Source: Mycobacterium sp. Root265 | Lineage (GTDB): Bacteria > Actinomycetota > Actinomycetes > Mycobacteriales > Mycobacteriaceae | Direction: 5' to 3' | Assembly (NCBI RefSeq): GCF_001428895.1 | Contig: NZ_LMJA01000002.1 | Location: forward strand, 232,183 to 296,182 | Length of the DNA stretch: 64,000 nucleotides | Shown: positions 4,911 through 58,875 of the stretch, one piece after another | Layout: every line of letters begins with the position of its first letter | How positions within the stretch are numbered: position 1 is the first letter of the stretch | The notes under the pieces: model-generated | Seen by the model: only the letters and a program-made list of their open reading frames with translations | What the model was told of the DNA's origin: nothing | The model's database searches: none | Program-made: the position numbers and the translations under genes

Positions 4911-7031
4911 TCAGTTGATCCCGACCGGCCGAAGTGGTGCAGGTCGAGCGGCCTTGAACATGGTGAGAATGTCCTGACCGGGTGGCGTCGGTCCCGTGGT
5001 CGTCGGCGGGCGCAGGTAGCTTTCGGCCGCCGCGATGAACGCGCCGGAGAGCACCCGACTCATCTCGGTCGTGATGTGGCTGCCATCGCGATAGACCAGC
5101 GTGTCGCCAATGACGCTGGGGCACTTGGTGGCATTGCAGAACAGTTCGGTGAAATCGAGGTAGGAGACGTTGTCGTACTGCTCGGCGACGGACCGCTCGA
5201 CGGCCCGTAACTCGGAATCCAGTGCCTCGGTTCTGTCGAGCGCGCAGTAGTCGGCGTCATCGATGAAGCGGGACAGGCAGATCGAGGGTGTGGTTCCGGT
5301 GGATGGGGTGTCGGCGAGCAGGACCAGATGCGACTGAGTGGGCAGTCGCTCGACCGCTGCGGTCAGCGCTTCGCGCCAGAGCTGTCCGCGATTCTCTTCG
5401 CCGGGGAAGTACAACTTCCCGAAGTTGCCCATGATCACCAGCGCCGGCGGATCTGCGGCGAGCTTGCTCGCCACATTCTCGATCCACGTCGGGCAACTGG
5501 TCGAGGCAATATTCGACGGCGGCGCGGCCGGGCAACTGCTCTTGGTATGCGACTCCAGGCGCACCTCGCCGCTCTCGGCCAGCGGCCGCAGCGCCGGATA
5601 CCACTGCGCGGCATGTGAATCCCCGAACAGCACCACCCGTGGAGCGGCAGGGTTGGAACCGATGACGCAGTCCGCGAGCTCGGTCTGACTGAGATTGCGG
5701 TGGCAGCCGTTGTCGTAGACGACCGGCTGGTCGTTGTCCGCCTCGGCCAGCGTCGGGATCAGATTCGTCGGCACGTACCCGGTGCCCGCGGGGCTCGCAC
5801 TGAGCACGATCGGCTCGGCAGGCTGACCGTTGTCCAGCCGGGGCTGGACCACCAGGCCGGCCGTCAGGGCCGTCACCACGACCGTCGTCATGGCGCCCAC
5901 TGCCACACCGAAGGTGCGGCGTGGCCGCGCCGTCGTGAGCCACCTCAGTCGCTGACCGGGAATCTCGACGTAGGTGTAGAGCAGCCACGCCAGTGGCACA
6001 CAGGCCAGCGCGAGCGCGATGCGCGCCCACATCGGCAGGTGTTCCATATAAGCGCCGGCAGCGACCGGCAGCATCAACACCGGCCAGTGCACGAGGTACA
6101 GGGAGTAGGAGATATCGCCGATCCAGGTGGCCGGCCGCACGCTCAGCATTCCGGCCGGGCCGCCCGGCGCGGTGCCCGCGGCGATCAGCAGGGCGGCGCC
6201 CAGCACGGGGATGGCCACCGCCGCACCGGGATAGACGGTCTTGGTGGTGAAGACCATGCCGGCACCGATGATCGCCGCCAGGCCGGCCCACCCCAGCGCG
6301 GCAGCGATGCGCGGCGAGAACAGCTTTCGTCCGTCGAGCAGTGCGAGGGCCACCAGCGCGCCGAGCCCGAACTCCCAAACCCGGGCCGGCAGCAGGAAGA
6401 ACGCGTCGGGTTGCGTGTAGGTCGTGGAGTACTGACAGACCGCGAAGGACACCGCGATGATCGCCGACATGGCGATCGCCATCGTCCAGCGCGCCTTGAA
6501 GAATCGGAACAAGATCGCCAGCAGCAACGGCCACAGCAGATAGAACTGTTCCTCGACGCCCAGGGACCAGTAGTGCAGGAACAGCGACGGGGTCTTCTCC
6601 GCGAGGTAGTCCGTCGCGTTGTAGGCGAACCAGAGATTGGGGATGTAGAAGGCCGCGGCCATGGCGTCTTTGACCACATAGCCGAATTGGATCGGCGAGA
6701 CCAGGAGTCGGGCGGCCAGCACCGTGGCGACGATGACGACGAAGGCTGCCGGCAACAGGCGGCGGGCACGACGGGCGTAGAACGATGCGAAGCCGATGCG
6801 GCCGTTTGTCCGCAGTCCTTCGAGGAGGTGGGTGCTGATGAGGAAACCGGATATGACGAAGAAGACGTCGACGCCGACGTATCCGCCGCCGAATCCCGGT
6901 ATCTCCGCGTGGAACAACACGACCAGCACGACGGCGACGGCGCGCATGCCCTGAATGTCGAGGCGTTTCTTCCGGACTGCCGCGCTCGCGTCCTGCTCCC
7001 TGATGGTTGCGCTCCTTGTAATCGCAATCAA
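4911..7031 (-). CDS. Acyltransferase 3 (OafA-type) with C-terminal SGNH domain
   Basis: 706 residues. Residues ~25-370 form the polytopic acyltransferase-3 domain: RLDIQGMRAVAVVLVVLFHA with the family His, GGYVGVDVFFVISGFLIS, YARRARRLLPA, and several hydrophobic helices. Residues ~430-690 form a periplasmic SGNH domain, with GDSHAAQW near 465 (catalytic Ser) and DGSHIT near 650 (Asp/His). Proteins of this kind O-acylate cell-surface glycans, the membrane part passing acyl groups to the SGNH domain; the substrate here is unknown. The only in-frame start before the conserved region is TTG 7031; oddly, an AAGGAG sits upstream of an ATC codon further in. Transcribed alone on the minus strand. Confidence 0.85.
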   Translation of the reverse strand: MIAITRSATIREQDASAAVRKKRLDIQGMRAVAVVLVVLFHAEIPGFGGGYVGVDVFFVISGFLISTHLLEGLRTNGRIGFASFYARRARRLLPAAFVVIVATVLAARLLVSPIQFGYVVKDAMAAAFYIPNLWFAYNATDYLAEKTPSLFLHYWSLGVEEQFYLLWPLLLAILFRFFKARWTMAIAMSAIIAVSFAVCQYSTTYTQPDAFFLLPARVWEFGLGALVALALLDGRKLFSPRIAAALGWAGLAAIIGAGMVFTTKTVYPGAAVAIPVLGAALLIAAGTAPGGPAGMLSVRPATWIGDISYSLYLVHWPVLMLPVAAGAYMEHLPMWARIALALACVPLAWLLYTYVEIPGQRLRWLTTARPRRTFGVAVGAMTTVVVTALTAGLVVQPRLDNGQPAEPIVLSASPAGTGYVPTNLIPTLAEADNDQPVVYDNGCHRNLSQTELADCVIGSNPAAPRVVLFGDSHAAQWYPALRPLAESGEVRLESHTKSSCPAAPPSNIASTSCPTWIENVASKLAADPPALVIMGNFGKLYFPGEENRGQLWREALTAAVERLPTQSHLVLLADTPSTGTTPSICLSRFIDDADYCALDRTEALDSELRAVERSVAEQYDNVSYLDFTELFCNATKCPSVIGDTLVYRDGSHITTEMSRVLSGAFIAAAESYLRPPTTTGPTPPGQDILTMFKAARPAPLRPVGIN

Positions 7032-7080: not shown

Positions 7081-8319
7081 TCAGAGCTCGTGCGAGCGCT
7101 CCGCCGGTGCGGCCGGCGGGGCGTTCAGAGGCCTTCTCGACATTCCGAGCGCTGCAAACCTTTTAGCAACGGAGTCCAGCCCCTCTTGATCTTGAACTGC
7201 CTGCGCTCGCGCATGTTCGAGCGTCAAACGAGCGAAGACGCAATCCAATTCGAGCGCGGCGACGCTTTCGGCGGCTCGGGCGTCGCCGAGACGGACAGCG
7301 TCGTGCAGTGCGCGCAATGTCACAGCAGACTGGCCACCCCGCGAAGCGGCGCGCGCCGCTTCGCGCGCGGCGGCGATCGCTCCCACCGCGTCCCGTCGCG
7401 CCGCGCAGGTCCAGGCCCGGGCCAGCGCCAGTTCAGGGGCGAACTGCATCGACTTCAACCCGTGTCGCGACTCCGCGCGCGAGAGCGCTTTGGCCGCATC
7501 GACCGCCAGTCCCTGCTGCCCGAGCGCCTGAGCCAGCAGCATCCACGCCAGCGGTCCCCACGAGTATCCGGTCACTGCCAGCGCGGCGGCGGATTCGCGC
7601 AACAGTGGCACAGCCTCGTCGAGGGCACCGCGCACCAACAGCACATCGGCCACCAGTAGCTGTCCGATCGCACGGGACGGCTGGGCCACTGACACCAGGT
7701 CACGCGCCAGCGCCTCGGCGCGATCCAGCTCGCCGGTGAGGATCAGCGCGGTGGTCTGCCCGAAAGCGGAGGTGAACCGCAGCAGCCCGGGATTGCCGGA
7801 CGCGACCGCCCGGGCGGCCAAAGTGTCGACCGAAGAGAACAGGCCCATCCGGGCGGACGACAACGCCGCCGCCGAAGCCGCCCAGCCGATCGCCCGACGG
7901 TCGGCGTCCGGCGTCGCGAGTACGGAGTCGGCGAGTTCCAGCGCACGCTGCGGGCTACCGGCGTTCATGGCGAAGGTGCTCAGTAACGCGTCGACGGTGG
8001 TCGCGGAACGCAGCTTGGCGCGTGTCGCGCGCAGGAAGGCGGTGGCCCGTTCGGGCTCGTCGAGCATCCAGAACTGATTGGCCGCCCGGGGCAGCGCCCA
8101 CGCGATCAGGTCGGCCTCGGTCAGGGTGGCGGGGTCGACCTCGGCGAGCACCGCGTCGGCATCGTTCCCGCGGCCCTGCCAGGCCAGGGCCTGCGCCAAC
8201 GTCAACCGCGCGGACAGTGATCCGCCCTCGGTCAATGCCGCCCGGGCCAGTTCCTCGGCGGCCCCGAGATCCGCGCGGCCCAGCGCGTCCGCAGCAGCGT
8301 CGCTCGACGGCTCAGACAC
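7081..8319 (-). CDS. TPR-rich protein resembling the helical part of LuxR/MalT regulators
   Basis: 412 residues, nearly all alpha-helical and Ala/Leu-rich with repeated AEELARAALTEGG-like helix pairs, i.e. TPR-like solenoid units. Examples are SARLTLAQALAWQGRGNDA, QRALELADSVLATPD and GELDRAEALARDLVSV. This resembles the sensor/solenoid half of large LuxR-family ATPase regulators, but no P-loop precedes it and no helix-turn-helix follows, so it would have to act by protein contacts. The GTG start at 8319 lies 6 bases after a TACACT -10 hexamer with no Shine-Dalgarno, which fits a leaderless mRNA. It is divergent from the LOG gene, only 61 bases away. Function unknown. Confidence 0.65.
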   Translation of the reverse strand: MSEPSSDAAADALGRADLGAAEELARAALTEGGSLSARLTLAQALAWQGRGNDADAVLAEVDPATLTEADLIAWALPRAANQFWMLDEPERATAFLRATRAKLRSATTVDALLSTFAMNAGSPQRALELADSVLATPDADRRAIGWAASAAALSSARMGLFSSVDTLAARAVASGNPGLLRFTSAFGQTTALILTGELDRAEALARDLVSVAQPSRAIGQLLVADVLLVRGALDEAVPLLRESAAALAVTGYSWGPLAWMLLAQALGQQGLAVDAAKALSRAESRHGLKSMQFAPELALARAWTCAARRDAVGAIAAAREAARAASRGGQSAVTLRALHDAVRLGDARAAESVAALELDCVFARLTLEHARAQAVQDQEGLDSVAKRFAALGMSRRPLNAPPAAPAERSHEL

Positions 8320-52469: not shown

Positions 52470-53777
52470 CTATGCAGCGGTGGGTAGGTCGGTCATGGTG
52501 CGTCGTGCGTGGGAGCGCAGGTGCGCCTGCTCGGGTTCGCCGGGGTTGTGGGGTGGGATGAACCAGGGGTGGCGGTCGGCGCCGAGGTAGACCTGCCAGC
52601 CGCCGTGGTGGATCGCGGTGTGGTGCAGTCGACAGAGCAGCACGCCGTTGTCGATGCTGGTGGTGCCCCCGCTGCTCCACGGGGTGATGTGGTGGGCATC
52701 GCACCACGACACCGGGCACCCGCATCCCGGATACGCACACCCACCGTCACGCACTGCCAACCCTTTCCGGATCACGGGCGTGAACAGTCGCTCGGCGCGT
52801 CCGACGTCCAGCGGCGCCCCGGCGGGGTCGACGGTCACCGTGGTGAGGGTGCTGTCGCAGGTGATCAGGTCAGCGGTGACGATGCTGATCGGTCCGGTGA
52901 ACCCGAGGGAGTTCACGGACCCATCTGCAGCAGGTCGGATGAGCGTGACATGCGGGAGGACGCCACCGCTCATCGGACGCTGTGAGTGCGACAGGTAGGT
53001 GCGCATCACCTGACCGAACGCATCGGCGCGGCGACGCCCGGTCGGCCGTGGGTCTGGTGAGCCGTCTGGCAGGGGTATCGGCCGGCACAGCGGATCGAGC
53101 GCGGCGAGCAGTTCTTCGCCGGTGAGCACGTCGAGATCCAGGGTGGCGGTGACTCGTCCGTCATCGGTCTGCACCAGGGTCAGGTCGTTGAGGTCGCGGT
53201 TCTCCGCGACCGGCACCGTGCCGTCTTCGACTGGTTGGGTGGCGGCTTTGTCGATGGCGATCTCGCGGGCTTTCTCGGCCACCTGCGACGGCGTGGTCTG
53301 AATCATCAACGTGGTGACGACCATGGCTCGCTCCTCCTCGGACAACGGGACCCTGGCGCTGATGTGGGTGACCCCTTTGCCGATGGCGTCGGCGAACTCG
53401 ATGCCGACCCCGCCGAGGCGCTGGGCCCGGGTCAACGCCGGCAGCGTGTGTGCCGCGCGCCCCACCCGCGCGGCCCGGTACGCCGCGCCGGGCGCAACAC
53501 CACAACTCATGAGCAGATCAGCTCCCGAGCGAAGATGCTTACGTGCCGGGATCCCAAGCCGCTCGGTGGCCGTAACCGCCTGGGCGATCACATGATCCAG
53601 GAGATTGCGCGCGGTGACCGCAGCGACCAGCACCGCCAGCAGGGGCTGCTCATCGACGATGCGGCGGGGACAGTCCAACAGATCAAACAGCCGGCGCTCA
53701 CCGTCCTCACCCGGTGGCGCAACAGCGAGGTCGTCAATCAACGCATCGACAAACGTGTCGAGATGGGTGGCGTCCAT
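52470..53777 (-). CDS. DUF222/HNH (13E12-repeat-type) nuclease-like protein
   Basis: 435 residues. DUF222 domain residues ~20-320 (helical N-terminus FVDALIDDLAVAPPGE, then LRSGADLLMSCGVAPGAAYR, AEKAREIAIDKAATQ). C-terminal HNH endonuclease: RDGGCAYPGCGCPVSWCDAH HIT region and VLLCRLHHTAIHHGGW, giving zinc-like cysteines and the HNH histidines. Proteins of the 13E12 type are multi-copy in mycobacteria and some are SOS-induced in M. tuberculosis. A perfect LexA box lies at 53921-53936, 144 bases upstream of ATG 53777. Bases 53,778-54,034 contain no other gene. Confidence 0.85.
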   Translation of the reverse strand: MDATHLDTFVDALIDDLAVAPPGEDGERRLFDLLDCPRRIVDEQPLLAVLVAAVTARNLLDHVIAQAVTATERLGIPARKHLRSGADLLMSCGVAPGAAYRAARVGRAAHTLPALTRAQRLGGVGIEFADAIGKGVTHISARVPLSEEERAMVVTTLMIQTTPSQVAEKAREIAIDKAATQPVEDGTVPVAENRDLNDLTLVQTDDGRVTATLDLDVLTGEELLAALDPLCRPIPLPDGSPDPRPTGRRRADAFGQVMRTYLSHSQRPMSGGVLPHVTLIRPAADGSVNSLGFTGPISIVTADLITCDSTLTTVTVDPAGAPLDVGRAERLFTPVIRKGLAVRDGGCAYPGCGCPVSWCDAHHITPWSSGGTTSIDNGVLLCRLHHTAIHHGGWQVYLGADRHPWFIPPHNPGEPEQAHLRSHARRTMTDLPTAA

Positions 53778-54034: not shown

Positions 54035-55405
54035 TCAGCTGAACAGCACCGCTCGGTTGAGATACCCCGTCGGGTCCAGCGCGGATTTGACCGTGCGCAT
54101 CGCGGCGATATCGGCGTCGGTGCGGGCCATCGGCAGGTAATCGCGTTTGCGGGTACCGACCCCGTGTTCGGAGCTGACGTTGCCGCCGTGATCGGCGATC
54201 AGCGCCATCATCGCCGAGTACAGCGCCTTCTCCCGGTCACCGTCCAGCGCACAGCGCACCAGGTTCAGGTGTAGGTTGCCCTCCCCGATGTGGCCGAACA
54301 ACACCGGGATTGCCTCGGGGGCGTGCGCGGCGACGAGTTCGACGGCGGCGGTGGTGAAGCCCGCGATCGCCGCCAGCGGTAGCGACACATCGAACTTCAG
54401 CGGCGGACCGTAGGCGCCCAGCACCTCGCCGACGGATTCGCGGACCTGCCACAACCGTTGGGAGGCAAGGGCGTCCATGCCGACGGCCGGTTCACCGCTG
54501 AGCTCGACATCCTCCAGCGCCTCGGCAAGGCTCTCGGTGTGGTCGGTGTCGCCGGCCAGCTCGATCAGCAGCATCCAGGCGCCGCTCACCGGGGCCGGGA
54601 CGCCCAGGTGCTCCGCGGTCAGCGCAGCCGCGCGGGCATCGACGAGCTCGAGTGCGGCGATGCCGTCGGCGTCCCGGAAATGGCGCCCGACCGTGATCAG
54701 CGCCTCCAGATCGTCGAACCCGGCCACCGCGGTCACCCGGTTCGCCGGCACCGGATGCAGCCGCAGATCCAGCCCGGTGATCACCCCGAGGGTGCCCTCG
54801 GCGCCGACGAACAAGGCGGTCAGGTCGTAGCCGGTGTTGTCGCTGCGCACCTCGCTATGCCTGCGCAGCACCGTCCCGTCGGGGAGCGCCACGTCCAGCC
54901 CGATGACTTGTTCGCCCATGTTGCCGTAGCGCACGGTGCGCAGACCGCCGGCGTTGGTGGAGGCCATCCCGCCCACCGTCGCGGAATCGCGGGCAGCCAG
55001 ATCCACCCCGAACAGCAGACCGGCCGCACCCGCCGCGCGCTGCACCGCGGACAGGGTGGCACCGGCCCCCACCCGTACCCGGCGCTCGACGGTATCGACC
55101 GGGTCGATGGTGGTGAGCCGCTCGGTGGACAGCAGCACATCGTGGTGTTCGGGCACCGTGCCGGCCACCAGCGAGGTGCGCCCACCCTGCACCGTCACGT
55201 ACGCCCCGGCGTCCCGGCAGACCCGCAGCACTGCGGCCACCTCGTCGGCGGACCCGGGCCGCACCAGCGCGCCGGCGTGGCCGCGGTAGCGGCCGGTGTG
55301 ATCGATCGCGCGCCCCGACAGCACGTCGGGATCGGTGCTCACCTGACTGGCTCCCACGATCGCGGCGAGCTGCTCGATCAGTGGGGCAGACAGCGGTTCG
55401 GTCAC
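54035..55405 (-). CDS. FAD-linked oxidase, glycolate oxidase/D-lactate dehydrogenase type (Rv1257c-like)
   Basis: 456 residues. N-terminal FAD-binding (PCMH) domain: VQGGRTSLVAGTVPEHHDVL, VRVGAGATLSAVQRAAG, SATVGGMASTNAGGLRTVRYG and GVITGLDLRLHPVPANRVTA. C-terminal oxidase domain with FGHIGEGNLHLNLVR (near 375) and EHGVGTRKRDYLPMARTDA near 420, the flavin/substrate signature of GlcD-type enzymes. It oxidises a 2-hydroxy acid; the exact one is unknown. GTG 55405 overlaps the stop of the helicase gene upstream (GTGA), so the two are translationally coupled. Resembles Rv1257c, displaced relative to M. tuberculosis. Confidence 0.88.
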   Translation of the reverse strand: MTEPLSAPLIEQLAAIVGASQVSTDPDVLSGRAIDHTGRYRGHAGALVRPGSADEVAAVLRVCRDAGAYVTVQGGRTSLVAGTVPEHHDVLLSTERLTTIDPVDTVERRVRVGAGATLSAVQRAAGAAGLLFGVDLAARDSATVGGMASTNAGGLRTVRYGNMGEQVIGLDVALPDGTVLRRHSEVRSDNTGYDLTALFVGAEGTLGVITGLDLRLHPVPANRVTAVAGFDDLEALITVGRHFRDADGIAALELVDARAAALTAEHLGVPAPVSGAWMLLIELAGDTDHTESLAEALEDVELSGEPAVGMDALASQRLWQVRESVGEVLGAYGPPLKFDVSLPLAAIAGFTTAAVELVAAHAPEAIPVLFGHIGEGNLHLNLVRCALDGDREKALYSAMMALIADHGGNVSSEHGVGTRKRDYLPMARTDADIAAMRTVKSALDPTGYLNRAVLFS

Positions 55406-58400
55406 CCCGTGGGTGTATCACATGCGGTGAGGGCGAGGAACGCGCCGAGGTCGATCAGCCCGTCCGGCTGCCCCGGCAGGTAGTCGGTCAGCCGCGCCGA
55501 ACGCACCATCACCGCCGCGTACTTGGCGCGGCTGATCGCCACGTTCAGCCGATTCCTGTTGAGCAGGAAGCCGATACCGCGGGGCACATCGTCGATCGAG
55601 GACGCCGTCATCGACACGAACACCACCGGGGCCTGCCGGCCCTGGAACTTGTCGACGGTGCCGACCTGCACCTCGGACAGTCCCGCCGCGTCGAGGCGCC
55701 TGCGCAGCAGCACCACCTGGGCGTTGTAGGGCGTCACGACCAGGATGTGCTGCGGACCCAGCGCGACGGTGCCATCCTCGTCGGTCCACGCGGCGCCCAG
55801 CAGCGCGCCGATCTCGTCGATGATCGCGTCGGCCTCTTCGGGGCTCTCGGTCGAGTTGCCGGTGTGCCCGACGGCCAGCACCCGCACCCCGGGTACGACC
55901 CCATCGAGGCGCCGCGCCGCACTGACCTTCTCGTAGGCGAGCAGCCGGCCGTCATAGGACAGCCGCGACACCGGCCGGCACACATCCGGATGCATCCGGT
56001 AGGACACCTCCAGGAAATACCCGCGCTCCGGCGGCAGCGTGTGGTGGCCTTCCACCAGCCAGCCCAGCGCGGATTCGTTGACCGGTTCGGGGTGGGTGCC
56101 CTGACTGACCTGGGGTAGCTGCTGCGGATCCCCGAGCAGCAGCAGGTTGCGCGCGGCGGAAGCCACCGCGATGGTGTTGGCGAGGTTGAACTGGCCGGCT
56201 TCCTCGACGACCAGCAGATCGAGGCTCTGCCGCGGCACCCGCGCGTCGTTGGCGAAATCCCATGCGGTGCCGCCGATCACGGAGCCGCCGTCCTCGGCGA
56301 TGAAGGCCGGGTAGTCCTTCTCGGCGATCTGGGTCCAGGCCACACCCTCGCGGGCCTTCTTCTTGCCGACCCGCTGCGGGTCGGCCCCGGCGGCGACCAC
56401 ACCGTCGAGCAGGTTCTCCACCACGGCATGTGATTGCGCGACCACGCCGACCCGCCACCGGTGCTCGGCGACGAGGCGCGCGATCACCGCGGCCGAGGTG
56501 AAGGTCTTTCCCGTCCCGGGCGGGCCGTGCACCGCCAGATACGACGAATCGAGGTCGAGCAGTGCGGCGGTGATGGCGTCGGCGTTCCCGGCCGGGGTGG
56601 CCGGCCGCGGCAGCGGATCCCCGCTGACGGTCCGCGGCGGTCTGCGCAACAGCACATCGGTCACCGCATCGGCAGGCAGGGCGGGCAGCCCGGCGGCCAC
56701 CAAAGCCGCTGTGGCATCGATGGACTCCTGTAGCGGCCGGGTGTTGATCGGCGGGCCCGGAGCCAGCGCGAACGGCAACTGGTCGAAGACGTCCCCCTCC
56801 TTGGGCTGCCGCTCGCAGACGATGACGGCGGTGGGCACCTCCGGGTCATCACATTCGAGCACCGCCACCGACCCGAAGGCGCGGCGATCCGGATCATCGG
56901 CCAGCCCCTCGGGCGCGGGCGGGTCGTAGAGCGCGTACATGTCATGGGCGAGTTCACCGTTGGCCAGCTCTCCGGTCAACCGGACATGCCGTTGTGGCTT
57001 ACGCGCCCGGGGCGGCTGGTGCCAGTCGGTGACGACCTCGGCCGTGTCGGCGACGAACACGCCGGTGTTGTCCGACCATTCGTCGACCGGATTGTTCACG
57101 CGATCGAAGTGGCTCCACCAGAACGGTTTGTCCTCCCTCTTGTGAAACCCCCGGGCCGCCGCCACCATCGCGACGGCGGTCTGCTCGACGCTGCGTTCCT
57201 CGACACCGTCGCCGGCGAACTTCATCAGCTTGCGGTTCAGATCGTCGGCGATCTCGGCGGTGGTCCCGGTTTCGTCGGCGCGCACCGGCTGTGGGCCACG
57301 CGGCGGCACCTCCGATTCGATGGCCCTGGCCACCAGCCAGTCCCGCAGCCGTCGGGTCGAACGGCAGTCGTAGCGGTTGTAATCCTCGATCTCCTTGAGC
57401 ACCACCTCCGCGTCATCGGTGCGGCCCTGGTCCTGCAGTGCGCAGAACTTTGCGTACTGGGTGATGGAATCGGTGGCGGTGGTGACCTCGCCGCTGCGTA
57501 GCTCGTTGCCCATGTAGAGCGGTTCGAGGTATTTGATGCTGTAGCTCTCGGCGCCGACCCGAATGCTCTTGCGCACCAACGGATAGAGGTCGACGAGCAC
57601 GCCGTTGCGCAGCAGGTCGTCGACCGCGTTCTCGCCGACGCCGTAGCGTCCGGCCAGTCGCAACAGGGTGCTCTTCTCGTAGGCCGCGTAATGGTAGACG
57701 TGCATCTTGGGGTAGCGCTTGCGCCGTTTGCGCACCATCTCCAGGAAATCCACGAGCGCCTGACGTTCGCTGGCCCGGTCGTGGGCCCAGTACGGGGTGA
57801 ACTCATCGGTGACGGTCAGGACACCCCAGAGGTATTCCAGGCCCCAGTCCCGGCCGTTGGTGGTCCACAGCGGGTCGCCCTCGAAATCGAAGAACAGATC
57901 ACCCTTGTCGGCGTCGGGCAGCACCATCAGCGGCTGCGGATCGACCACCTCGAAAGGCGGCTTGCCGTCGATCCGCTCGGCGACCTGCAGCCGGGCCTGC
58001 CCGGTCAGCGCGGCGACGGTGCGTTTGGACAGTTCGGGAACGGGCCCGTCATGGGCGGCGAGTTCGTGCACGGTGCTGATGCCGGCGTCGATGAGCCGGG
58101 CGCGCTGGCTGGTCCGCATGCCCGCGACCAGCAGCAGGTCGTCGGACTCCTTGACCTGGACGCTGCATTCGGGGCAGCGGAAGCAGGCCCGCACGCCGTC
58201 GTCGGCCCAGGTGACCGGGACGCCACCGGCTAAATGCGTGTCGAGCAGTCGCTGCAGGGCATCGCGGCGCGGCAGGTAGACCGGCAGCAGTTCGTCGACG
58301 CGGTAGCTGGAGACCGCGCCGTTACCGAGTAGCAGGTCGACCTCCTCGGCGACCGGGACGCCCGCGGTGGCCAGCGCGTCGGCGTAGGCCGCCAACTGCA

Positions 58401-58824
58401 GCAGCGCCTCGACCTTCACCGAGCGGGCCAGCTTGGTGTCGCGCAGCCGGTAGCGCGAGCCGTCGAAGGTGAGGAAGTCGGCGAACCCGGCGAACCTGCC
58501 GTCGAACATGGCGGCCTGATAGATGGCCGGATCGCGCCGCCGGACGGCGGCCATCGTGTGCTCGGCGGCCGCGGTGAGACCGGACACCGTGTAGGCGGGC
58601 CTGCCGATCACGGTGACCTCGGTGTCCTCGCGGATCTCGGCGAGGTGGCGCTGCTCGTGCTCGTGACCGAGGTCGGCAGTGCGGGCGAGCAGGTCGTCGT
58701 CGGTGGAGACGCGCGGTCCCCAACCCAGGTGAGCGTCGAAGGAGCGCAGCAGCGCGTATTCGCAACGCGCAGCGGCCGCGAGGTCGGAGGCGCTGTAGAT
58801 GACACGATCCTCAGCGACGAACAC
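55402..58824 (-). CDS. TM0106-family RecB-like nuclease fused to exonuclease and SF1 helicase (Rv1251c-like)
   Basis: 1140 residues. (1) RecB/Cas4-like nuclease ~10-220: RCEYALL (Cys near 21), GHEHEQRHL, GFADF, RDTKLA (Asp-x-Lys), LLQLAAYA (Gln/Tyr) and CFRCPECS near 214; Cys21 plus these three Cys suggest an Fe-S cluster, as in Cas4/Dna2. (2) RNase H/DEDDy-like exonuclease ~300-500: FFDFEGDPLWTT near 310, HVYHYAAYEKSTLL, and YNRYDCRST near 481. (3) Dna2-like SF1 helicase ~650-1100: GPPGTGKT near 766, VVEEAGQF, GDPQQLPQ, DKFQGRQAPVV, RNRLNVAISRAK. Function unproven; DNA repair or processing likely. GTG 58824 is 6 bases after TAGCCT (leaderless). Confidence 0.88.
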   Translation of the reverse strand: MFVAEDRVIYSASDLAAAARCEYALLRSFDAHLGWGPRVSTDDDLLARTADLGHEHEQRHLAEIREDTEVTVIGRPAYTVSGLTAAAEHTMAAVRRRDPAIYQAAMFDGRFAGFADFLTFDGSRYRLRDTKLARSVKVEALLQLAAYADALATAGVPVAEEVDLLLGNGAVSSYRVDELLPVYLPRRDALQRLLDTHLAGGVPVTWADDGVRACFRCPECSVQVKESDDLLLVAGMRTSQRARLIDAGISTVHELAAHDGPVPELSKRTVAALTGQARLQVAERIDGKPPFEVVDPQPLMVLPDADKGDLFFDFEGDPLWTTNGRDWGLEYLWGVLTVTDEFTPYWAHDRASERQALVDFLEMVRKRRKRYPKMHVYHYAAYEKSTLLRLAGRYGVGENAVDDLLRNGVLVDLYPLVRKSIRVGAESYSIKYLEPLYMGNELRSGEVTTATDSITQYAKFCALQDQGRTDDAEVVLKEIEDYNRYDCRSTRRLRDWLVARAIESEVPPRGPQPVRADETGTTAEIADDLNRKLMKFAGDGVEERSVEQTAVAMVAAARGFHKREDKPFWWSHFDRVNNPVDEWSDNTGVFVADTAEVVTDWHQPPRARKPQRHVRLTGELANGELAHDMYALYDPPAPEGLADDPDRRAFGSVAVLECDDPEVPTAVIVCERQPKEGDVFDQLPFALAPGPPINTRPLQESIDATAALVAAGLPALPADAVTDVLLRRPPRTVSGDPLPRPATPAGNADAITAALLDLDSSYLAVHGPPGTGKTFTSAAVIARLVAEHRWRVGVVAQSHAVVENLLDGVVAAGADPQRVGKKKAREGVAWTQIAEKDYPAFIAEDGGSVIGGTAWDFANDARVPRQSLDLLVVEEAGQFNLANTIAVASAARNLLLLGDPQQLPQVSQGTHPEPVNESALGWLVEGHHTLPPERGYFLEVSYRMHPDVCRPVSRLSYDGRLLAYEKVSAARRLDGVVPGVRVLAVGHTGNSTESPEEADAIIDEIGALLGAAWTDEDGTVALGPQHILVVTPYNAQVVLLRRRLDAAGLSEVQVGTVDKFQGRQAPVVFVSMTASSIDDVPRGIGFLLNRNRLNVAISRAKYAAVMVRSARLTDYLPGQPDGLIDLGAFLALTACDTPTG

Positions 58825-58830
58825 GGACCC

Positions 58831-58836
58831 AGGCTA
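58831..58836 (-). promoter_or_regulatory. -10 hexamer of the RecB/helicase gene
   Basis: TAGCCT on the minus strand (58831-58836), 6 bases before the GTG at 58824. No ribosome binding site. Supports a leaderless start for the helicase-oxidase pair. Confidence 0.45.
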
Positions 58837-58875
58837 GGGGAGAGCTCCGACACACGTGCTGCGGGCGGGGCGGTG

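Follow-up and report, generated by a model that had tools for sequence, protein, structure and literature searches.

The DNA analysed here (the window) is a stretch of 64,000 nucleotides from Mycobacterium sp. Root265 (contig NZ_LMJA01000002.1, positions 232,183 to 296,182 of the forward strand), and the gene in question, which encodes a predicted helicase-nuclease, lies on its minus strand. An earlier note on this DNA had read the open reading frame (ORF) at 55402..58824 as a single polypeptide of three domains; exactly this frame was recovered, with matches to TIGR03491, RNase_H_2 and AAA_11/AAA_12 along its length. The features of the locus are as follows.

55402..58824, minus strand: helicase-nuclease gene (1140 amino acids, GTG start), RecB/Cas4-like nuclease, helix-hairpin-helix-like segment, DEDDy exonuclease fold and superfamily 1B (SF1B) helicase.
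58150..58824, minus strand: domain 1 (residues ~1-225), Cas4/RecB-type PD-(D/E)XK nuclease with D116, D129-x-K131, Q143 and Y147 and the cysteines C21, C214, C217 and C220; assigned from conservation and a Foldseek search with the N-terminal model.
57970..58137, minus strand: helix-hairpin-helix-like segment (residues ~230-285; the name is our own reading), with weak profile matches (E 0.06-0.11) to the NusA C-terminal repeats.
57325..57912, minus strand: domain 2 (residues ~305-500), probable DEDDy 3'-5' exonuclease fold with D313-x-E315, E383 and Y482-x3-D486.
55480..57192, minus strand: domain 3 (residues ~545-1115), SF1B helicase with the motifs GPPGTGKT, EEAGQ, GDPQQLPQ, YRMHP, VDKFQGR and LNVAISRAK.
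58831..58852, minus strand: PafBC-type (RecA-independent, RecA-NDp) promoter, TGTCGG (58852-58847), 10 nt, and TAGCCT as -10 (58836-58831).
54035..55405, minus strand: downstream gene for a flavin adenine dinucleotide (FAD)-linked oxidase, which shares 4 bp with the 3' end of the helicase-nuclease gene.

The TIGR03491 match (NCBIfam) spans residues 83-497 and scored 166.6 bits against a cut-off of 97.45; among the Pfam models, RNase_H_2 matched residues 310-498 with 65.5 against 22 bits, AAA_11/AAA_12 matched within 750-1108, and PDDEXK_1 alone stayed below its threshold (20.3 vs 22 bits). Membership in TIGR00376, the IGHMBP2 family helicases, was rejected, its 131.5 bits lying far below the cut-off of 348.9. 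The family is already named, TIGR03491 being the 'TM0106 family RecB-like putative nuclease', and plasmid records call relatives either by this name or 'bifunctional RecB family nuclease/DEAD/DEAH box helicase'. The word 'uncharacterised', used in the earlier note, is accurate for function, as far as the literature searched reaches, and inaccurate for the family as such.

Structure prediction of the domains, which had been proposed there as a check, gave confident AlphaFold2 models (predicted local distance difference test, pLDDT, 92.4 and predicted template modelling score, pTM, 0.87 at full length; 95.5 and 0.88 for residues 1-509). Of the 50 listed matches to the N-terminal half, every one was a DNA polymerase chain that aligned with the DEDDy proofreading-type domain (PolB-exonuclease fold); Cas4 was absent from this list, which the exonuclease domain fills. 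In the Foldseek search with the N-terminal model, Cas4 (8d3l, E 1.9e-3), MGME1 (5zyv, 3.3e-3) and RecE (3h4r, 6.8e-3) appeared with DinG in their midst (2e-3 to 7e-3) and were followed by influenza and bunyavirus endonucleases; none of the matches in this search reached E 0.001. These mixed, weak matches single out no one nearest PD-(D/E)XK family. A profile search of the N-terminal alignment against solved structures returned weak matches to NusA C-terminal repeats and one phosphatase.

The closest helicase folds (Foldseek) included those of IGHMBP2, Upf1, Dna2, Sen1/SETX and coronavirus nsp13, and the modelled helicase is of the Upf1/IGHMBP2/Dna2 (SF1B) type. IGHMBP2, Upf1, Sen1/SETX and nsp13 are known for their work on RNA, and a gene for a DeaD-type RNA helicase is among the neighbours; one possible explanation is that the protein processes RNA-DNA hybrids or RNA (R-loops, damaged RNA) in the manner of Senataxin, IGHMBP2 and Upf1, with the RNase H-like fold acting as a hybrid nuclease. 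We consider this distinctly unlikely, as the closest helicases also include Dna2, which acts on DNA, the nuclease domain resembles the DNA nucleases Cas4, MGME1 and RecE, the rows for the N-terminal half were 50/50 DNA polymerase chains, and the PafBC-type promoter points to DNA damage.

Conservation was examined in an alignment of 124 full-length homologues (43 mycobacterial and 81 others), 4 partial ones of 128 matching ORFs being omitted. D116, D129, K131, D313, E383, D412, D486 and K773 were present in 124/124 and E315, Q143, Y147 and Y482 in 123/124; the other SF1 helicase motifs besides K773 were near-invariant. C21 and C220 were kept in 122 and C214 in 120 of the homologues, and the full cysteine set (C21 plus CxxC-x2-C or CxxC-x5-C) in 119, the exceptions being L080, L140, L155 and two Melainabacteria (L186 and L189). 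The putative iron-sulfur (Fe-S) cysteines, one N-terminal and three C-terminal, follow the pattern of Cas4/RecB nucleases, and conservation is strong at the predicted sites of all three activities, nuclease, exonuclease and helicase. The earlier note had said that a lack of the Fe-S or D-x-K residues in most homologues would count against it, and no such lack was seen (cysteines 119/124; D129 and K131 124/124). Its Cas4/RecB-type nuclease with four cysteines is borne out by the conserved D, D-x-K, Q-x3-Y and cysteine set, as far as residues can tell, and its Dna2-type helicase by the closest folds and by K773.

The claim that all catalytic motifs look intact stood in that they are near-invariant over the 124 sequences, and was refined at two positions. 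Motif II of the exonuclease is Glu (E383) in 124/124 homologues; DEDD enzymes usually have Asp there. Motif II of the helicase (Walker B; residue 874, window ~56203-56205) reads EE, not DE, in 37/43 mycobacterial sequences, and its first acidic residue is Asp in 81/81 non-mycobacterial sequences and in the mycobacterial L117-L120, L123 and L168. The EE is a lineage-specific change at a near-invariant site.

Upstream of the gene the order is GTGTCGGAG-CTCTCCCC-TAGCCT, then GGGTCC (6 nt) and then the GTG start. The LexA/RecA-independent damage promoter has been given as tTGTCRgtg-8 nt-TannnT (PMC5656591; PMC numbers here and below stand for excerpts of the articles), this type of promoter has been reported to depend on PafBC (PMC6789036, PMC11804915), and PafBC is activated by single-stranded DNA (ssDNA) in M. 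smegmatis (PMC11804915). The window promoter matches 10 of the 12 defined positions of tTGTCRgtg-8 nt-TAnnnT, and the strict pattern occurs once in the window, at the helicase-nuclease gene. Since the -10 lies only 6 nt before the GTG, a leaderless mRNA is predicted. Thirty mycobacterial sequences (the window and 29 others) have their best site, with 8-11 of 12 positions, at the start codon; 43/43 mycobacterial sequences have an in-frame GTG either 6 nt (30 sequences) or 7 nt (13) beyond the -10 of their best site, which would place the transcription start at the start codon.

The homologues were arranged in a FastTree tree (midpoint root, long branches flagged), which contained an actinobacterial core clade of 99 rows including the window, a second actinobacterial group of 8 rows, and a group of 17 rows with Proteobacteria, Melainabacteria, Acidimicrobiia, Jiangella, the relative L062 and L075, a second copy from a mycobacterium. 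In the core clade, strict TGTCRG-N10-TAnnnT was found in 67/99 upstream regions, a pattern one base looser in 79/99 and the degenerate GTCR-N11-TAnnnT in 90/99; the reversed pattern was found in 0/99, and among 8574 further windows of 190 bp taken from these core loci the strict, looser and loosest patterns occurred in 6, 7 and 24. Outside the core clade even the degenerate pattern was seen in 0/25, one of the 25 (L071) being masked with N there. The motif is kept between proteins that are only ~43-52% identical.

A further scenario is that the motif is a relic or a coincidence, and that the gene encodes a constitutive replication factor for flap processing or primer removal, in function a bacterial counterpart of Dna2. 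The Dna2-like order, nuclease before SF1B helicase, and the wide presence in the genus would fit it. The scenario is nevertheless very unlikely in our view, given a motif at the promoter of 90/99 core members and 0/25 outsiders; species that lack the gene speak against an essential role in replication, and flaps and primers would already be dealt with by Pol I and RNase H.

Across the window's genome, which encodes a PafC-type helix-turn-helix protein (140.7 bits), the strict pattern occurs at 61 sites vs 20 for the reversed control. Among 30 of the 61, the downstream ORFs include DNA polymerase III alpha, LigA (ligA), exonuclease III, a DEDD exonuclease/UvrC-like protein, a RecB-family exonuclease, Tex and DUF222 proteins, and an SbcD-like protein (below the model cut-off) lies 41 nt from one site; the rest precede non-repair genes or no convincing gene. 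Four copies of the PafBC-type motif are identical (G000:C1:75132, C6:62238, C12:46341 and C30:265878), and similar ORFs start 6 nt beyond the first three, the two longest being DUF222 proteins; a multi-copy family may, on these motifs, be damage-inducible. A gene for a DUF222 and HNH endonuclease protein also lies near the helicase-nuclease gene (52470-53777, minus strand), with no strict PafBC motif before it.

The helicase-nuclease gene is present in one copy in the window's genome, and a match was found in 131/148 genomes of the genus (124/137 of the good ones). In G082, G265 and G270 the match consists of no more than remnants, distant copies or a trace, and it is split over contigs or frames in several other genomes. 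In G082 (C1:917675-918893) only fragments are found, one frame of them with an in-frame stop, and the gene appears to have decayed in that species. The TIGR03491 cut-off was exceeded in 60/197 genomes of the class, 9/289 of Alphaproteobacteria and 12/274 of Gammaproteobacteria; named relatives among the best 80 of 209 loci come from Mycobacterium, Rhodococcoides, Arthrobacter, Microbacterium, Leucobacter, Sphingomonas, Bradyrhizobium, Legionella and Melainabacteria. A relative was also found in 148 plasmid records, of which 55 cover at least 80% of the query. Phage origin was set aside, with one phage record (19% of the query, in the helicase part) and at least two viral contigs.

Some mycobacteria carry a second, distant copy: L075 (G049:C1:260000-275500) and those of genomes G244, G272, G282, G265, G217 and G312. 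The helicase part of these second copies is 41-46% identical; L075 groups with mobile proteobacterial relatives on the tree and is without the PafBC motif.

Several non-core loci lie near defence-type genes (Abi/AbiD, HEPN, DUF4011, DUF4007 with a cysteine desulfurase, E2/ThiF, a cytosine methyltransferase). Such neighbours, the sporadic occurrence of distant relatives in Proteobacteria and on plasmids, and the match of the helicase to models of Mokosh MkoA could mean that the protein is primarily an anti-phage or anti-plasmid effector which destroys foreign DNA, with DNA-damage control as its trigger only. The MkoA match (E 6.7e-48) falls in two stretches, however, of which the best (residues 848-1110, profile 771-1076 of 1112) lies inside the helicase; since the same held for the best stretches of MkoC, DpdJ, PDC-S37 and Hhe, the protein was not filed among the defence systems (PADLOC). 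The window gene adjoins lprE- and deaD-type genes, 0/8 of the Pfam-scanned window genes are known defence genes, relatives are as rare in phage and viral sequences as given above, and a Paracoccus plasmid relative has metabolic neighbours. An anti-phage effector is therefore unlikely. The earlier note had offered repair, replication-end processing or anti-phage defence as roles; a DNA-damage response is favoured among these, and neighbours of defence type turned up solely around distant relatives with a sporadic, plasmid-borne occurrence, and even there not in every case.

The relatives outside the core clade were scanned for WYL regulators with a profile built from four plasmid WYL proteins and iterated over the loci. 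A divergent WYL gene adjoins the family gene in 7/17 loci of the 17-row group (L177, where a small ORF may separate the two, L179, L181, L182, L188, L189 and L190); within the available flanks there was none in the 8-row group and none in the 69 core loci scanned, core loci L001 and L032-L060 (30) being outside the scan. Pfam identified WYL in 9/9 proteins tested and WCX in 8/9. Ten of 20 listed plasmid places were examined: one, H2, is core-like, and of the nine non-core places five have an adjacent WYL gene (H6, H7, H8, H13 and H14, with a small gene between the two in H8), three have none (H9, H10 and H21), and in H17 the WYL genes are further off. In a further, non-overlapping genome sample an upstream WYL gene was found in 3/6 full-length alphaproteobacterial and 1/6 gammaproteobacterial loci; two of these four are on the same strand, and in the gammaproteobacterial locus L236 hardly any upstream sequence is available.

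An inverted repeat near TGACA-N5-TGTCA was found in 13/14 examined loci with a divergent WYL gene (not in L189), and in 1/7 loci without WYL. Eleven of the 13 scored at least 8/10, L206 was found by pattern and L177 was read by eye; L194 and L268 are near-copies, L197 and L267 are alike, and shuffle p-values are weak (0.03-0.05) for single operators scoring 8/10. Its half-site TGTCA fits the TGTCR of PafBC, and rewritten as GAC-N7-GTC the repeat agrees in core and spacing with the DriD consensus, ATACGAC(X)7GTCGTAT (PMC12340889); PafBC and DriD are published ssDNA-sensing WYL regulators. A scan of 24 loci (22 non-core and 2 core; 382,404 bp) for GAC-N7-GTC found 16 such repeats. Eight precede the helicase-nuclease gene and four overlap its 3' end; two stand in front of an SbcD-like/AAA pair, one is located further upstream in L182, and one falls within a WYL gene. 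Repeats lie at 6836 and 7920 in both L194 and L268, at 5920 and 9294 in L181, at 618, 2007 and 5403 in L182, and at 7794 and 11168 in both L197 and L267; they mark a small putative WYL regulon of the helicase-nuclease and, in two related plasmids, the SbcCD-like pair. Upstream of L175 (Jiangella) and the actinobacterial L062 stands CTGTCGG(T/A)G-N8-CAGnCT, near the PafBC motif with C for T opening the -10, and in L175 this motif overlaps a GAC-N7-GTC repeat. It is a tentative idea, to which we give rather less than even odds, that across bacteria WYL regulators which sense ssDNA have this family as their dedicated effector, reached in the actinobacterial core through PafBC and TGTCR and in the mobile relatives of Proteobacteria and plasmids through their own WYL protein and GAC-N7-GTC (in some cases with further repeats at an SbcCD-like pair nearby and at the 3' end of the gene), the latter as a portable LexA-independent mini-SOS module around a three-domain helicase-nuclease.

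Around the window gene lie those for the FAD-linked oxidase, an LppP/LprE lipoprotein, a DeaD-type RNA helicase, an acyltransferase, a siderophore-interacting protein and a TetR regulator. To judge by their overlap, the helicase-nuclease and oxidase genes are probably co-transcribed; no functional link between the two is known. We take this neighbourhood to be the Rv1250-Rv1258c region, which would make the window gene the orthologue of Rv1251c; orthology to Rv1251c/MSMEG_5044 is thus probable on the grounds of synteny, not of an alignment. MSMEG_5044 may already be listed in the 2018 study of the PafBC regulon. A published table equates Rv1251c with MSMEG_5044 and lists the latter at 2.18 (unit of the table unchecked) after olivomycin, with recA, lexA and ruvABC also raised (PMC7650759); the values listed for a perM mutant are 2.2 for Rv1251c and 2.8 for lexA (PMC4450064). 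Such co-induction with recA, lexA and ruvABC, or with lexA, agrees with damage induction. Searches of the open-licence literature, as excerpted, for 'TM0106', 'TIGR03491', 'bifunctional RecB family nuclease', Rv1251c and MSMEG_5044 returned no functional study of the family or of Rv1251c; within the reach of these searches, what is new is the regulatory evidence.

Taken together, these results point to a DNA-damage-induced, Dna2-like processing helicase-nuclease that Mycobacteriales and Micrococcales carry as part of their chromosomal repertoire for repair, a reading to which we assign a probability of about 0.62. A role in DNA damage is favoured because of the conserved PafBC-type promoter and the match in 131/148 genomes of the genus; induction, enzyme activity, polarity and phenotype are what we infer from these and from the domains. 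DNA damage would expose ssDNA, which would activate the WYL activator PafBC; PafBC would then direct sigma-A RNA polymerase to the TGTCRG/TAnnnT promoter, and a leaderless mRNA would be made. By its fold, the SF1B motor would move 5'-3' on ssDNA and feed it to the Fe-S PD-(D/E)XK nuclease, which, by fold and conserved residues, may cut the tracked or displaced strand, and the DEDDy domain may trim 3' ends. The likely outcome would be the removal of flaps or damaged single strands, or the resection of ends or gaps, before recombination or the action of polymerase and ligase. The gene is a good candidate for an uncharacterised DNA-repair machine, and the earlier interpretation as a whole is partly supported.

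Several observations weigh against this reading. The gene has no match in 17/148 genomes of the genus and no full orthologue in at least three more (G082, G265 and G270), an absence which means that it is dispensable. The relatives' loci are the best 80 of 209 and are biased towards the window's kin; the 99 core rows are related and so are not 99 independent events. The degenerate promoter motif is missing in 9/99 (L033, L034, L065, L076, L079, L126, L155, L172 and L183), L033 and L034 being among the window's nearest relatives. By chance, 0.18 strict motifs alone would be expected per window, and the best sites of L038, L045, L112, L115 and L116 are no better than shuffles; the promoter case rests on position and conservation. 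The Glu in motif II of the exonuclease and the EE of the helicase mean that either activity could be altered. In the published material, the authors of the olivomycin study place MSMEG_5044 in a redox/ATPase response (PMC7650759), Rv1251c falls in an energy/respiration expression cluster (PMC1884158), which does not particularly agree with damage induction, and a methylome paper labels it 'putative ester hydrolase' (PMC7591249).

If the damage-response reading is true, the protein would represent an unstudied processing activity, a Dna2-like nuclease-helicase joined to a proofreading-type exonuclease in the damage response; and, should the association of the mobile relatives with WYL regulators hold up, a single effector family would connect WYL-linked mobile islands with damage sensing by PafBC and DriD. 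Mycobacteria have a large LexA/RecA-independent damage response, and the activity would stand beside their AdnAB and RecO-type routes.

Among known systems, TIGR03491 includes the window protein as a member, and plasmid homologues so named align over up to 99% of the query; the model's name carries no function, and some matches (L072, L235 and L243) are frames of only ~480-550 amino acids, too short for the helicase. AddAB, RecBCD and AdnAB likewise combine a helicase with a RecB-family nuclease, partly with Fe-S, but have UvrD-type helicases, are multi-subunit complexes and are not known to carry a DEDDy exonuclease. UvrD-Cas4 fusions, too, join a RecB-type nuclease with an Fe-S module to an SF1 helicase, but theirs are UvrD-like 3'-5' helicases (PMC5704561), whereas the window protein appears SF1B/Upf1-like and has a putative extra DEDDy domain. 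The putative promoter motif and leaderless geometry of the window gene resemble those of the PafBC regulon. The DriD regulon of Caulobacter shares with the WYL-linked relatives a WYL regulator and the operator core GAC-N7-GTC; the DriD targets named in the excerpt (didA, bapE, recJ, dnaG, driD and a divergent operon) do not include the helicase-nuclease family (PMC12340889). With eukaryotic Dna2 (5ean, 5eax), the Foldseek alignment extends over 1109 columns at a TM-score of only 0.36. Dna2 has a Cas4/RecB-type Fe-S nuclease N-terminal to an SF1B helicase, and the window protein is predicted to have the same order in one chain; it differs in being bacterial and in the putative DEDDy exonuclease between nuclease and helicase, and regulation of the RPA type, as in Dna2, is not known for its family. 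Judging from the models, it might be Dna2 that the protein works most like, in spite of the low overall similarity and the added exonuclease.

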